This document shows positions 24,418 to 50,112 of a stretch of 64,000 bases of DNA, one piece after another (position 1 is the stretch's first letter; every line of letters starts with the position of its first letter). The notes beneath the pieces are model-generated. The model was not told where the DNA came from. It saw only the letters and a program-made list of their open reading frames with translations, and searched no databases. A program made the translations under genes and the position numbers. The stretch comes from an uncultured Verrucomicrobia subdivision 3 bacterium (GTDB lineage Bacteria; Verrucomicrobiota; Verrucomicrobiia; Limisphaerales; UBA11358): assembly GCA_903827955.1 (NCBI GenBank), contig CAIKKJ010000075.1, positions 1 through 64,000 of the forward strand, written 5' to 3'.

Positions 24418-25323
24418 ATGAAAACGGAAAACCCAGTCATCGAAATCCAAAACCTCGTGCGGCGCTACGGCAAACACGATGCCGTGGACGGCCTCTCGCT
24501 CACCGTGCAGCCCGGCAGATGCTATGGCTTCTTCGGCCGCAACGGCGCGGGTAAAACCACGACCATCAAGTGCCTGCTTAATTTGCTGCGGCCGGATTCC
24601 GGCAGCGTGCGCGTGTTTGGTCTCGACCCGCGCAAGGATGAAGTCGCCATCAAATCGCGCATCGCCTATGTGCCGGACGTGGTGGCGTTTTATCCGTGGA
24701 TGACCGTGGCCGACACGCTGGAATACTACGCCTCCTTCCGCACCAACTGGAATCGCGACATCGAGGCCGATTTGCTCAAACGCTTTCAGCTCGATGCCGC
24801 CAAGAAAACCACGAGTCTCTCGAAAGGCCAGCGCACACAGCTCGCGCTCATCGGCGCGATTTGTCCCGAACCGGAACTGCTCGTGCTCGATGAGCCGACG
24901 AGCGGCCTCGACCCGATTGTCCGCCGCGAATTCATCGAAACCGTCATCGGCGCGTATCAATCCGGCGACCCCGGCAAGCGCACGGTGTTTGTTTCCACGC
25001 ATTTGATTTCCGAGTTCGAGGGTTTGATTGACGAATTCACCATCGTTGAAAACGGCAAAAATCTTTTGACGATGGAAGCCGACGCCGCGCGGGATCGTTT
25101 CAAAAAAATTCGGGCCCGCTTGCCGCAAGAAACCAAACTGAACCTGTCTGCCGCATTGAGCGTGAAGCAAAGCGGACGCGACGTAGAAATTCTCGCTAAC
25201 GGCAACAGCGAACAGTTGCTCGCGGAATTGAAGGCGCACAAGCCGGAGGAATTAAAAATCGAGGCGCTGACGCTGGAAGAAATCTTCGTGGCGTCGGATG
25301 TTTTGAAAAAGGCAACCACATGA
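24418..25323 (+). CDS. ABC transporter ATP-binding protein
   Basis: GFFGRNGAGKTTTIKCLLNLL...SLSKGQRTQLALIGAICPEPELLVLDEPTSGLDP; ATG 24418 in ORF 24370..25323. Confidence 0.93.
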   Translation: MKTENPVIEIQNLVRRYGKHDAVDGLSLTVQPGRCYGFFGRNGAGKTTTIKCLLNLLRPDSGSVRVFGLDPRKDEVAIKSRIAYVPDVVAFYPWMTVADTLEYYASFRTNWNRDIEADLLKRFQLDAAKKTTSLSKGQRTQLALIGAICPEPELLVLDEPTSGLDPIVRREFIETVIGAYQSGDPGKRTVFVSTHLISEFEGLIDEFTIVENGKNLLTMEADAARDRFKKIRARLPQETKLNLSAALSVKQSGRDVEILANGNSEQLLAELKAHKPEELKIEALTLEEIFVASDVLKKATT

Positions 25324-28136
25324 CCCCGCTCGTCAAAAAAGAAATCCGCCTGCTGCTGCCGAGCTTTCTCCTCGGTTGCCTGCTGGCATTTTCCAACTGG
25401 CTGCTGCCCATCATAGCGCGAGATTTCGACGGAATATTTTACCTGTTCCCATTCGTATTCTGCCCGGCGATGGTGGCCATGATGGCACTCAATCCGTTTG
25501 GCGGCGAGGTGAGCGCGGGCACGCTGGCCAACCTGTTGGCGCAACCCATTTCGCGGCTGCGGCTGTGGCAGACGAAAATTGTGCTGTTGGCGCTCGCGCT
25601 GTTGATTATCGGCCTGCTCTGGTGTGGATCTTTTATTTTACAATTACATTTTTACGGTAACCACGGTGATTTCAAAAATCCGCTGGATGCGCTTATTACC
25701 GCCGTCCTCTTCGGCCTCGTGGTTTTTTCCGGCGGACTGTGGACGGTGCTGCTGCTGCGGCAGGTGGCAGCGGCGTTTTGGTTCACGCTACTCGTGCCGG
25801 GCGTGTTGCTGGTGATTGTCTTCGCCATCTTCGGCGGCGAATCGGACGAACTCATCACCGCCGTGAGCGTGACGGTGCTGGGGCTTTACAGCCTCGCGGG
25901 ATTTTTCTTTGCGCGCTGGCTGTTTTTCCGCGCGCAGGATTTGCAATGGTCGGGCGGCAGCATCGTCATGCCGGAAATGCGCGGGCTAAAGTGGTGGGGC
26001 GAGCGTCCTCGCGAGCCGCACGTCGTGGGTGCCAGCGGCTCGTCAGTAGCCTCGCCCCACCGAAGACATCCGCGCGCGGCACTGTGGCGCAAGGAATTCA
26101 TGCTGCACCAGTCGCAATACGTCATGGCCTTCGTGCTGCTCGTGCTGCACCTCGGCGTGCTGGGCGTGCGACGTTTTTACGACTTGAGCCATTCGCGCGA
26201 CTTGAAATTCACGCTCGAAATTTTCTGGGGTCTGTGGTTTGTGATGCCGCTGCTCGTCGGTTGCGCGGCGGTGGCGGAGGAACGCAAAATCGGCACGCTC
26301 GAAGGCCAGCTCTGCCTGCCGGTAAAACGGCGCTCGCAGTTCGCCATCAAATTTATCGTGATGCTCTTTCTGTCCGTGCTGCTCGGCGTGGTGATGCCGT
26401 TGCTACTGGAAGGTAAACGGATTTTGCCGGGCGGCGGCCTTGATTTCTCAACGGCCACCGGGGTCATGGGACAAATTGCCTCCACAAATTATCCATTCTC
26501 CACCATAGAAACGATTTTGTTGAACACGGTGGTCATGGTGTGTCTTTATTTACCGGTGCTTTTTTTGGTCGGCATTGCTTTGCTGATTGGCGGCATGGCG
26601 TTTTACGCGTCGTCGCTGGCCCGCAACACGCTGCAATCGCTTGCGCCGGCAGTGCTGGGAATTTTGGTCATGTGTTTTCTGCTGGCGGCGGCGGGTATTC
26701 CGGCGGTTCCCACAGTTGATTTTATGTGGCGCGGGCCGCTGGCGTATTTCATCGGCGTGCCGCTGGTGCTGCTCACGCTGGTGGGCTTGGCGTTTTGGAA
26801 TTTTCAGCAGGTCAAAGCCAGCGCACAAATGGGCTGGCGCAACCTGCTGGCGTTCGTGCTGGCCGTGGGGCTGGGCGTGGTGACGACGGCGGCGGTGTAT
26901 CATCGCGCGTGGGAAAAACTCACGCCGTTCGAGCCGGCGCACGGCGCGGCGCGGTTGGCGCTGGCGGATTCTGTCCGGTTGGAAAACCCTTGGAACGACT
27001 TGAGCGTCCGTTTGCCGGAGGGAAAAATCTGGAAAGCCTGGTCCAAATACAACCGACCTGACCCGCTTGATGTGTTGCTGGGAAATTTCAAAGTCGCGAA
27101 GCAGGAAGGCGCATATCTCGGCGGCTCGAATTGGACAGCCGTGGTTGATTGTCTTTGGTATCAACAGGCGGGCATCAAGTCGGACGGGACGCTGTGGGTT
27201 TCGCCAAAGCCAAAACGTCCCAGCGCCTCCGAAAGATTCCGGTCCGTCTTGCCAAAACGAGAAGCACTCGCGCAATTTGGCAGCGAGACCAACTGGAGCA
27301 GTCTGGGCTCGCGAGGAATTTTTGCGTTGCTCGTTAAAAATGACGGAACCTTGTGGCGCTGGGGCGTGACGAATTTTGACTCGAAGCACGAAACCTGGCC
27401 CGGCCTGCAAGCCTTCACGCCCCAGCGGCTCGGAACGGAATCAAACTGGGCGGAGGTTTCCGAACATAACTACCGGTTTCAACTTCGCGAGACCGACGGC
27501 AGCGTCTGGACTTGGAATGACTACGGCAGCACAAACAATCTGACCCGGCTTGAAATTGAACCGGGGTTCACCGTCGAATCCATGACTAGCTTCAAAAATT
27601 TTCGCAGCAAGGCATACATAAATCCTGGATTGCAATACCGCGTCGGCGTGCGCGACGACGGCACCTTCCGCATCTGGTCTGGTGATCGTGTGGTTATCAA
27701 TAAAACTTCACGCTACAATTCTTACGAGCAGTTTCCGATGGATTTGCAAATCGGCAGCGAAACCAACTGGCTCGCCGTCGCTGGCGGCGGCGAAAAAATC
27801 ATCACGCTCAAAAACGACGGAACGCTCTGGCTGTGGAATTTTCAGCGGAGTCAATTCAGCGGTGGAGCACAAAACGAATTTGAATCGGAAATCCAAAAGA
27901 CCGTCCCCGTCCGCCTCGGCAAGCATGCGGACTGGATAGCCATTTCCGGCGGTTGGGAGGCCACCACTCTCGCCGCCGACGGCAGCCTCTGGTATTGGCC
28001 GCTGCAAACCGGCAACCGCTATGACGGTGCCTACAGCACATACGACGACCGGAATGATTTCAGCCACATCCGCCCGCTGCTGGAAAGCTCGCGCAAGCCG
28101 CAGTTGCTGGGAAATGTGTTTGCCGGCGGACAGTGA
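25320..28136 (+). CDS. ABC-2 type permease fused to C-terminal RCC1-like beta-propeller repeats
   Basis: Multiple hydrophobic TM segments in the first ~550 aa, then repeats like GSETNWSSLGSRGIFALLVKNDGTLWRWGV and GSETNWLAVAGGGEKIITLKNDGTLWLWN; one uninterrupted ORF. Confidence 0.8.
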   Translation: MTPLVKKEIRLLLPSFLLGCLLAFSNWLLPIIARDFDGIFYLFPFVFCPAMVAMMALNPFGGEVSAGTLANLLAQPISRLRLWQTKIVLLALALLIIGLLWCGSFILQLHFYGNHGDFKNPLDALITAVLFGLVVFSGGLWTVLLLRQVAAAFWFTLLVPGVLLVIVFAIFGGESDELITAVSVTVLGLYSLAGFFFARWLFFRAQDLQWSGGSIVMPEMRGLKWWGERPREPHVVGASGSSVASPHRRHPRAALWRKEFMLHQSQYVMAFVLLVLHLGVLGVRRFYDLSHSRDLKFTLEIFWGLWFVMPLLVGCAAVAEERKIGTLEGQLCLPVKRRSQFAIKFIVMLFLSVLLGVVMPLLLEGKRILPGGGLDFSTATGVMGQIASTNYPFSTIETILLNTVVMVCLYLPVLFLVGIALLIGGMAFYASSLARNTLQSLAPAVLGILVMCFLLAAAGIPAVPTVDFMWRGPLAYFIGVPLVLLTLVGLAFWNFQQVKASAQMGWRNLLAFVLAVGLGVVTTAAVYHRAWEKLTPFEPAHGAARLALADSVRLENPWNDLSVRLPEGKIWKAWSKYNRPDPLDVLLGNFKVAKQEGAYLGGSNWTAVVDCLWYQQAGIKSDGTLWVSPKPKRPSASERFRSVLPKREALAQFGSETNWSSLGSRGIFALLVKNDGTLWRWGVTNFDSKHETWPGLQAFTPQRLGTESNWAEVSEHNYRFQLRETDGSVWTWNDYGSTNNLTRLEIEPGFTVESMTSFKNFRSKAYINPGLQYRVGVRDDGTFRIWSGDRVVINKTSRYNSYEQFPMDLQIGSETNWLAVAGGGEKIITLKNDGTLWLWNFQRSQFSGGAQNEFESEIQKTVPVRLGKHADWIAISGGWEATTLAADGSLWYWPLQTGNRYDGAYSTYDDRNDFSHIRPLLESSRKPQLLGNVFAGGQ
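25993..26061. repeat. Palindromic element copy 1 (inside ABC permease ORF)
   Basis: 69 bp: GGTGGGGCGAGCGTCCTCGCGAGCCG - 17-nt loop - CGGCTCGTCAGTAGCCTCGCCCCACC; arms identical to 47673..47734. Confidence 0.95.
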
Positions 28137-46978: not shown

Positions 46979-47079
46979 GGTAAAGTAAGGATGCTTTCAT
47001 TTCCGATTTGTTCCAGACAATTTCACCCCCAAATTCCGCGATTGAGTCAGGGGATTTCTTGCGTATCATTCAGCGCTCT

Positions 47080-50000
47080 ATGTCCAGCAGCCGCAGACAA
47101 TATCCGTTTCACCTGATCGAACCCAAGTGGCAGCAAACTTGGGAGCAGCAGCAGGCTTTCCGCGCGTTTAATCCGAACGAGGAAATTCCCGCGAACCATC
47201 CTTTCGCCGTGCGCCATAAGCTTTCCGGCAAAGTTTCCGCCACGCAACTGCCTGAAAAATTTTACATCCTCGACATGTTTCCGTATCCGAGCGGCGCGGG
47301 CTTACACGTCGGGCATCCCGAAGGCTATACAGCCACGGACATTCTCGCGCGCTACCGTCGCGCGTGCGGATTCAACGTGCTGCATCCGATGGGCTGGGAT
47401 TCGTTCGGTTTGCCTGCCGAGCAATACGCCGTCAAGACCGGCCAGCATCCGCGCGTGACGACCGAGGCGAACATCGCCAACTTCACGCGCCAGATCAAGA
47501 GTCTCGGCTTCAGCTACGACTGGTCGCGCGAACTCGCCACGACGGATGTGGAATATTTCAAGTGGACGCAGTGGATTTTCCTAAAGCTTTACAATTCGTG
47601 GTTCAATCCCGAAACGAACAGGGCTGAACCGATTGAAACGCTGAAATTTCCGGCAGAATTGGAATCAACGTCGGTGGGGCGAGCGTCCTCGCGAGCCGAC
47701 GCGTGGGACGGCTCGTCAGTAGCCTCGCCCCACCAAGACCTCGAATCGCGCCGCCGCGCTTATCGCGATTCCAAACGCCTCGCCTATGTCAGCGAAGCGC
47801 CGGTGAACTGGTGTCCTGAACTCGGCACGGTGCTGGCCAATGAGGAAGTCATAGACGGCAAGAGCGAAGTCGGCGGCTTTCCAGTCATCCGCAAGCCGAT
47901 GCGCCAATGGATGCTCCGCATCACCGCCTACGCCGAGAAATTGCTGGCCGACCTCGACACGATTGACTGGAGCGATTCGCTCAAGGAAATGCAGCGGAAC
48001 TGGATTGGGGGCAGCGAAGGCGCGGAAGTAGAATTTCGAGCTGGTGGAAAATATGTTCGGCGCAGCGATAATGCCGAATCAGAATTTCAAATAGGCCCAA
48101 AAATTCCAGTGTTCACAACACGTCCAGACACGTTGTGCGGCGCAACCTATTTGGTCATGTCGCCAGAAAATAAATTGTTGGATGAAATTGTCGAAGACAA
48201 ATGGCCGTTTTGGGCATACGCAGAATTGAAAGGAACGTCATTATTTGGCAAAGAGCCGGCAACGCCAAAGGAAGCTCTGGAATTGTATCGCAAATATGCG
48301 GCTTCAAAGAGCGATTTGGAACGAACTGATCTCAATCGAGAAAAAACAGGCGTGTATATTGGCGAATCAGCGGTTGAACCCATTCGCGAAAACATAATCC
48401 CCATCTTTGTCGCAGATTATGTTTTAGCAAACTACGGGACGGGCGCAATAATGGCTGTTCCAGCCCACGACGAGCGTGATTGGGAATTTGCGAAAAAATA
48501 CCGACTGTCAATTCGCGCGGTCGTCATGCCACCGGACGAATGGCTCATGAACGCGGTCGGTTCACCGCCGGCGGAATGGTTCACTAACGCATTCAAACTT
48601 TTGAACTTGTCAATGGATTCAATGGATTTGCTGACGGCAGCACGGAAGTTATACGAGCGAGACTGCGGTCTTTTCCCTTATCCGTTTGTTGGAACTGGCA
48701 CTGCAATTAATTCCAGTGGGACTGATGATCTCCAAGTTAATGGCTTATCCACCGCCGAAGCCAAAGCGAAAATCACCGCTTGGCTCGAAGAAAAAAAACT
48801 CGGCAAGCGCACCATCAACTACAAATTGCGCGACTGGCTGTTCAGCCGCCAGCGTTACTGGGGCGAACCGTTCCCGATTGTTTGGAAAAAGGACGCCGCC
48901 GGGAATTTGCACCACGAAGCATTGCCGGAAAGTTCGTTGCCACTGTTGCCGCCGTCGCTCGAAGATTACAAGCCCACTGCCGACGGCCAGCCACCGCTCG
49001 CCCGCGCGAAGGATTGGTTGAATCTGCCCGACGGTTCCGTGCGCGAAACGAACACCATGCCGCAGTGGGCCGGCTCGTGCTGGTATTATTTGCGTTACAC
49101 CGATGCGAAGAACGTGCAGTCGTTCGTCGGCAAGGATGCGGACAATTATTGGATGGCCTCGAATGGCAAGGCGGCGGGCGTGGACCTTTACGTCGGCGGC
49201 ACGGAACACGCCGTGTTGCATCTGCTTTACGCGCGGTTCTGGCACAAAGTTTTGTTCGACCTCGGCCACGTTTCGACGCCCGAACCGTTTTACAAACTCG
49301 TCAATCAAGGTCTTATCCTCGGCGAGGATATGCAGAAGATGTCCAAGGCTCGTGGTAATGTGGTGAATCCTGACGCTGTCGTCGAAGAATACGGCGCGGA
49401 TGCGCTCCGGCTTTACGAGATGTTCATGGGGCCGTTGCAGGACACCAAGCCATGGAACACCAAGGGCGTCGAAGGCGTCTATCGTTTCCTCGGCCGCGCG
49501 TGGCGTTTGTTCGTGGACGAGAAAGCGGAAACGGCTTTTGAACAGGCTGAGACTACGACTGAACCGTCCAAGCACGCAGAGTTGCTTGATTTAATTTTAC
49601 TCGATGGCGGCATTACCGACACGGACGCCACGCCCGCGCAACTCAAGACACTCCACGCCTGCATCAAAAAAGTCACTGAGGATTTGGACGGCATGCGCTT
49701 CAACACAGCGATTTCCGCGATGATGGTGTTCATCAACGAGGCGATGACGTGGCAGACGAAGCCGTTGTCGGTGATGAAAACTTTTCTGCAACTGCTCGCG
49801 CCGTTCGCGCCGCACATCGCGGAAGAATTGTGGGCGCGGCTGCATTCCACGTTCGGCCAAACCGCGCCGTCACTGGCTTATGCGGTGTGGCCGAAGTTTG
49901 ATGCGGCTTTGCTCGTCGAAAGCGAGATCGAACTGCCGGTGCAAGTGAATGGCAAGTTCCGTGACACGATCAAGGTGGCGGTGGACGCCGATAACACAGC

Positions 50001-50112
50001 CATCGAGGCGGCGGCGAAAGCTTCGGAAAAAGTCCAAACGTTTATCGCAGGCAAGGCCATCAAGAAAGTCATCATCGTGCCGAAGCGGATGGTGAATTTA
50101 ATTGTCGGCTAA
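47080..50112 (+). CDS. leuS: Leucyl-tRNA synthetase
   Basis: DMFPYPSGAGLHVGHPEGYTATDILARYRR...TTRPDTLCGATYLV...GTGAIMAVPAHDERDWEF...KMSKARGNVVNPD; ATG 47080. Confidence 0.97.
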   Translation: MSSSRRQYPFHLIEPKWQQTWEQQQAFRAFNPNEEIPANHPFAVRHKLSGKVSATQLPEKFYILDMFPYPSGAGLHVGHPEGYTATDILARYRRACGFNVLHPMGWDSFGLPAEQYAVKTGQHPRVTTEANIANFTRQIKSLGFSYDWSRELATTDVEYFKWTQWIFLKLYNSWFNPETNRAEPIETLKFPAELESTSVGRASSRADAWDGSSVASPHQDLESRRRAYRDSKRLAYVSEAPVNWCPELGTVLANEEVIDGKSEVGGFPVIRKPMRQWMLRITAYAEKLLADLDTIDWSDSLKEMQRNWIGGSEGAEVEFRAGGKYVRRSDNAESEFQIGPKIPVFTTRPDTLCGATYLVMSPENKLLDEIVEDKWPFWAYAELKGTSLFGKEPATPKEALELYRKYAASKSDLERTDLNREKTGVYIGESAVEPIRENIIPIFVADYVLANYGTGAIMAVPAHDERDWEFAKKYRLSIRAVVMPPDEWLMNAVGSPPAEWFTNAFKLLNLSMDSMDLLTAARKLYERDCGLFPYPFVGTGTAINSSGTDDLQVNGLSTAEAKAKITAWLEEKKLGKRTINYKLRDWLFSRQRYWGEPFPIVWKKDAAGNLHHEALPESSLPLLPPSLEDYKPTADGQPPLARAKDWLNLPDGSVRETNTMPQWAGSCWYYLRYTDAKNVQSFVGKDADNYWMASNGKAAGVDLYVGGTEHAVLHLLYARFWHKVLFDLGHVSTPEPFYKLVNQGLILGEDMQKMSKARGNVVNPDAVVEEYGADALRLYEMFMGPLQDTKPWNTKGVEGVYRFLGRAWRLFVDEKAETAFEQAETTTEPSKHAELLDLILLDGGITDTDATPAQLKTLHACIKKVTEDLDGMRFNTAISAMMVFINEAMTWQTKPLSVMKTFLQLLAPFAPHIAEELWARLHSTFGQTAPSLAYAVWPKFDAALLVESEIELPVQVNGKFRDTIKVAVDADNTAIEAAAKASEKVQTFIAGKAIKKVIIVPKRMVNLIVG
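47673..47734. repeat. Palindromic element copy 2 (inside leuS)
   Basis: 62 bp: same two 26-nt arms as 25993..26061 around a different 10-nt loop ACGCGTGGGA. Confidence 0.95.

Follow-up and report, generated by a model that had tools for sequence, protein, structure and literature searches.

GTGG-tagged REP-like palindromes, probably mobile and carried in-frame inside genes of uncultured Verrucomicrobiota

Two copies of one palindrome in the window

The window, the whole 64,000-nucleotide stretch of DNA analyzed here, carries the same palindrome in two protein-coding genes. It belongs to a family of small, probably mobile DNA repeats of uncultured Verrucomicrobiota, which are often found inside essential genes and leave the frame unbroken.

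Copy 1 is 69 bp long (25993-26061), and copy 2 is 62 bp long (47673-47734). The initial annotation had described identical arms in the two copies, and this holds in coordinates and sequence: both are bounded by GGTGGGGCGAGCGTCCTCGCGAGCCG and CGGCTCGTCAGTAGCCTCGCCCCACC, and chance matches of these arms were found in 0 of 100 dinucleotide shuffles. Within one copy, the arms are only 81% complementary to each other, because the inner 8 nt differ (CGTCCTCG vs. GCTACTGA). Copy 1 is read in-frame as WGERPREPHVVGASGSSVASPH, 23 residues within a 938-aa ABC-2 permease, which confirms the earlier observation that it is carried without breaking this reading frame. Copy 2, located in-frame in a leucyl-tRNA synthetase (LeuRS), is read in a different frame, as VGRASSRADAWDGSSVASPHQ. 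No Rfam family was found in the window. The features are as follows:

25320-28136, plus strand: ABC-2 type permease, 938 aa, host gene of copy 1, with a C-terminal repeat region
25993-26061, plus strand: REP head-to-head dimer, copy 1, 69 bp, in-frame in the permease
25993-26018, plus strand: left REP monomer, type A, GTGG tag and GGCGAGCG-TCCT-CGCGAGCC
26036-26061, minus strand: right REP monomer, type B, GTGG tag and GGCGAGGC-TACT-GACGAGCC, read on the minus strand
47008-50112, plus strand: leucyl-tRNA synthetase, host gene of copy 2, likely start at 47092
47673-47734, plus strand: REP head-to-head dimer, copy 2, 62 bp, in-frame in LeuRS

The permease ends in a long region (27000-28136) of NDGTLWxW-type repeats, which resembles RCC1-like repeat proteins and gave repeated partial matches.

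Copy number and spread of the family

A search with the 24-nt arm, allowing up to three mismatches, gave 25 matches in the 3.86-Mb genome to which the window belongs (hereafter, the own genome) and none for the reversed control. From these, 14 inverted pairs were extracted; a further pair is truncated where its contig stops, and contig C211 has two single arms. Of the 97 relatives searched, 47 also carry the arm, at most 126 times in one genome; over all 97 together, the reversed control matched once. REP sequences typically occur in many dispersed copies per genome, and this is what these counts display. Among the matches listed for the exact 26-nt arm, all were on contigs labelled Verrucomicrobia, Limisphaerales or Pedosphaera or on metagenome-assembled (MAG) contigs without a taxon label.

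The spacers between the arms measure 0 to 109 nt in 86 distinct pairs, and some of them, for example gctcaaacccaaggctcacgac, recur in several genomes. Judged from the sequences, these recurring loops suggest that the pair spreads as a unit. The arm counts, the distribution over relatives and the permease orthologs without the insert (see below) all bear out the initial view of a dispersed, mobile-looking palindromic family.

Some individual copies have particular surroundings. One (L001, G000:C32:26437-26506) adjoins a KdsC-like start (DVDGVLTDGSI) that runs into a stop; the gene may have been disrupted by this copy. After several pairs (L086, L089, L101, L113, L166), some of which lack a loop and measure 50 bp, the sequence continues with AAACTG and in many cases a CACTAC-like motif; this may be a target preference or an additional repeat. 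Near the Y1 transposase gene of contig C191 lies a further palindrome, of the CACAGAGGCACAGAG type (L055:2679-2757).

Anatomy of the arms

The anatomy was derived from 172 arms of the 86 distinct pairs, collected with a pattern that fixes the arm ends within three mismatches. GGTGGGGCGAG and CGAGCC are almost invariant, an invariance of the ends that is partly due to this pattern, and the inner eight bases are variable. The GTGG tag, GGCGAG and CGAGCC are all nearly invariant, each base of the tag being kept in at least 165 of the 172 arms. As a single strand, an arm consists of an unpaired 5'-GTGG tag and a short hairpin, whose stem includes a tandem G.A/A.G mismatch and whose loop is TCCT, TACT or TCCC; the tags face outward. 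The plan of REP sequences, in which one end of a short hairpin bears an unpaired GTAG-type tag, is recognizable in GTGG followed by GGCGAGCG-TCCT-CGCGAGCC. DNA folding yields this hairpin for the type A arm and not for types B and C.

Types B and C alter the inner pairs, which were left free by the pattern: at pair 8, 128 arms have G-C and 37 have C-G. On the aligned arms, this switch is read as a change on both sides within one arm, for which a long palindrome offers no explanation. In A/B pairs, the inner part of one arm is not complementary to that of the other; hence, two REPs describe the unit better than one long palindrome. The REPIN architecture, two inverted REPs with the tags outward, is present in the extracted pairs, and a REPIN-like head-to-head REP pair is the structure supported by these comparisons. 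Of the likeness to REP/RAYT sequences or Rickettsia palindromic elements (RPEs) first proposed, the dispersed, REP-like character stands; the more exact designation is a GTGG-tagged REP head-to-head dimer.

Host genes and sites without the element

At least 9 of the 14 pairs of the own genome are located in-frame inside conserved, Pfam-supported genes: the ABC permease, LeuRS, MutS, MutY, OGG, PriA, PurL, a beta-ketoacyl synthase (KAS) and a squalene/phytoene synthase (SQS/PSY). Two others lie just upstream of genes, for fumarase and a LolA-like protein. The placement relative to coding sequences, left as a question by the initial annotation, is therefore largely intragenic. About 19 more in-frame cases with Pfam support come from other genomes, including RibD, Mfd, MutL, RecN, PdxJ, PdxA, PurD, HflX and GcvT. 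Repair and replication genes (MutS, MutL, MutY, OGG, PriA, RecN, Mfd) account for 7 of about 23 distinct Pfam-supported hosts, a plain count uncalibrated for gene length. REP copies are expected mainly outside genes, whereas 9 of 14 pairs are in-frame in Pfam-supported genes here; intragenic REPs are, however, accepted as members of the REP superfamily in the Opitutus terrae study (PMC3733652). In-frame insertion into functional genes, as in RPEs, is a property of the GTGG-tagged palindromes.

The permease provides the clearest site without the element. In six of six orthologs, 39-56% identical over their matches, the linker is 39 aa long vs. 52 aa in the own genome, and none contains the peptide, so that it is not a conserved segment of this protein. 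The 23-aa (69-bp) element brings a net gain of 13 aa (39 bp); hence, about 30 bp of the permease target were lost or replaced. For OGG, the shortest linkers have 18 aa vs. 38 in the own genome, a difference below the 25.7 codons of the element. LeuRS stretches without the element range from 68 to 106 aa, a variation that makes the net insertion length unusable in this gene. By inspection, no direct repeat indicating a target duplication is apparent in the flanks of the elements; only a pyrimidine before and a purine after the element are seen.

Shared landing sites and conservation of the arms

The same linkers are occupied repeatedly. In the MutS linker (L231-L260), the GTGG-tagged family is present in seven sequences, two of them decayed, and GTAGGGACGCG and GTAGCAGCCGACG palindromes are found in others. 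In the OGG linker (L371-L400), the own genome has the GTGG-tagged family, and no fewer than three further palindromes are found there elsewhere; a different palindrome occupies one LeuRS linker. By sequence comparison, then, the same MutS, OGG or LeuRS linker carries unrelated palindrome families in other species. Inverted repeats of at least 12 nt occur in 12 of 84 such linkers vs. 0 of 497 equal-length nearby windows of the same loci; of the 12, four belong to the GTGG-tagged family, the reason these genes were picked, and eight are other palindromes.

At orthologous insertions, the arms are nearly identical and the loops have diverged. In LeuRS, 50 of 50 arm positions are identical vs. 0.50 at the four-fold sites of the gene, and all 15 four-fold sites inside the arms are unchanged (P = 3e-5). 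The arms agree at 49 of 50 positions in PurL (L011/L063; four-fold sites 0.68) and likewise in MutS (L240/L157; 0.67), and the intact MutS copies as a whole range from 47 to 49 of 50 vs. 0.48-0.69. Two MutS copies, L242 and L245, have decayed to neutral levels. Near-unchanged arms of this kind may arise by constraint, conversion or repeated insertion alike.

Search for a transposase

The PF01797 profile identified three Y1 genes in the own genome, none with family arms nearby. At 33 Y1 and 30 RAYT loci, which include part of the Y1 genes of the arm-rich genomes, no convincing family arm was found within 1.5 kb of a Y1 gene. A PF01797 match is absent in the arm-bearing genomes G016 and G048, both incomplete MAGs. 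With no family arms beside the Y1 genes, we infer mobilization by a RAYT from the architecture; since no RAYT with the same REP was found among the loci read, the pairs are named REPIN-like only.

A RAYT gene is present in the own genome (L057, G000:C151:57946-58752), flanked by several REPs of the form GGAG-CGCCGGCG-TCCT-CGCCGGC. These are GGAG-tagged and share the CGTCC[TC]CG core of the GTGG-tagged arms; two further RAYT loci (L305, L315) show similar cognate REPs. The REP-associated Y1 transposase proposed at the outset was thus found in part, as a RAYT with REPs of the same architecture, but the arms of the GTGG family are not beside it. A Y1 gene 3.5 kb from the C191 copy was considered as a partner and rejected: the ORF is IS200-like, no arms were found within 1.5 kb of it, and its proximity is probably a coincidence.

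Y1 domains nested in housekeeping genes

In the own genome and nine relatives, a Y1 (HUH) domain is located in-frame inside alanyl-tRNA synthetase (AlaRS), at one of two sites:

L056 (G000:C118:3332-5554), L331, L332 and L334-L340: AlaRS with nested Y1, ten genomes

The nested domains keep the catalytic motifs, DHxH and Y-x-C-x-NP, in all ten genomes. For the own genome, only one AlaRS place is listed. In L056, inverted GGAG-tagged REP-like sequences appear to flank the Y1 domain; in G045, the AlaRS site is empty and the flanks are contiguous. In other relatives (L321, L323, L324, L326, L328, L330), Y1 is in-frame in DnaE, a DinG-like helicase, ClpB, a UDPGP-like protein and PriA. The literature searched contained nothing relevant on RAYT domains within synthetases or other housekeeping genes; as far as searched, Y1 domains nested in AlaRS are undescribed.

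Tentatively, and with a probability somewhat below even, the REP/RAYT sequences of Limisphaerales could be gene-resident: REP pairs, and sometimes apparently intact Y1 domains with their REPs, would be maintained in-frame, as translated domains within essential proteins (AlaRS, DnaE, PriA, ClpB, MutS, LeuRS), at recurrent landing sites common to unrelated families. If true, transposase expression and copy survival would be tied to indispensable host genes.

Origin and maintenance of the element

With good confidence, the element is regarded as a non-autonomous inverted REP pair, most likely spread in trans by a RAYT-type Y1 (HUH) transposase, via single-stranded DNA, and kept in flexible linkers. 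GTGG-GGCGAGCGTCCTCGCGAGCC in single-stranded form would be the putative substrate for RAYT binding and cutting. Insertions in flexible protein linkers would be retained by selection, and small gains or losses of flanking bases would restore the frame. Most reading frames through the body are open, so that copies survive as inserts of 17-30 aa in housekeeping proteins.

Two alternatives concern the conservation of the arms. The palindromes could be functional sites, protein-binding sites or RNA hairpins under DNA or RNA selection, instead of mobile parasites. The near-identity of the arms at the orthologous LeuRS, PurL and MutS insertions, where four-fold sites and loop drift, is what such selection would produce, but decay has brought the orthologous L242 and L245 copies of MutS down to neutral levels, the family is missing from about half of the relatives, and the same linker is occupied by different palindrome families; this explanation is unlikely. 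Arm identity may also reflect repeated independent insertion at a hot spot, or gene conversion, and not one old, constrained insertion. This would be compatible with the REP reading and is somewhat less likely than not. Several unrelated families in the same MutS and OGG linkers and the unequal loops of the MutS copies (23, 26, 32 and 41 nt) point in this direction; however, loops appear homologous in PurL (identity 14/18, 11/18 and 9/18) as well as in MutS L240/L245 (17/26), and one codon phase is common to all copies within a gene.

Other element types agree less with the anatomy. In-frame insertion into genes is the hallmark of RPEs (PMC3733652), and the arms contain CGTC, as would suit a Rickettsia-type RPE or a CGTC-tagged REP. 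This CGTC is, however, within the hairpin, the outer unpaired tag being GTGG, whereas CGTC families carry it at the terminus and have 8-9 bp stems; such an assignment is disfavored as very improbable. The inverted ends and a size of 50-100 bp would fit a MITE that descends from a classical DDE insertion sequence bounded by terminal inverted repeats. Against it, the flanks show no direct target duplication by inspection, the arms make up most of the element, and no parent insertion sequence with GGTGGGGCGAG ends was noticed among the Y1 genes, the only ones covered; there is very little likelihood that the element is of this type.

Significance and comparison with known systems

The kind of element is known, and the GTGG family itself seems undescribed. 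The family had initially not been recognized as described: this appears correct for the GTGG family, but intragenic REP dimers are already known in Verrucomicrobiota, having been reported, with repair genes over-represented, for Opitutus terrae (Di Nocera et al. 2013, PMC3733652). The preference for genes and the common landing sites are unusual and, together with the nested transposase domains, more than routine: throughout an order, core genes harbor short palindromic elements that behave as insertions compatible with the protein. One linker with different families in different species offers natural replicates, which allow tests of how REP pairs move and come to be tolerated, and of the reason why so many are found in DNA-repair genes. 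A richness of REP hosts in repair genes was noted by Di Nocera et al. in other bacteria (PMC3733652).

The GTGG-tagged pairs resemble the GTAG-superfamily REPs of Opitutus terrae, especially GTAG-20, in the host phylum, the GTGG tag and the head-to-head dimers, a likeness by description and not by consensus (PMC3733652). They also share with these REPs the in-frame intragenic copies encoding 20-30 aa and the over-representation of repair genes. As differences, at least 9 of 14 paired copies are in-frame here, and landing sites are common to several species and families. As in Rickettsia palindromic elements, palindromes are found in-frame in genes of many functions; the position of the tag and the host phylum, compared by description, are different.

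REPINs have been described mainly outside genes, with a cognate RAYT. Unlike them, the GTGG-tagged family is without a linked RAYT in the loci tested. Like REPINs (Bertels and Rainey 2011, PMC3116915), the pairs consist of two inverted REPs and a spacer, and some spacers recur between copies and genomes here. In RAYT/TnpA-REP systems, a Y1 transposase accompanies its cognate REPs; no RAYT was found with GTGG-GGCGAG arms at its ends, but the RAYT of contig C151 is flanked in the same manner by GGAG-tagged REPs, whose hairpin core is that of the GTGG-tagged family.
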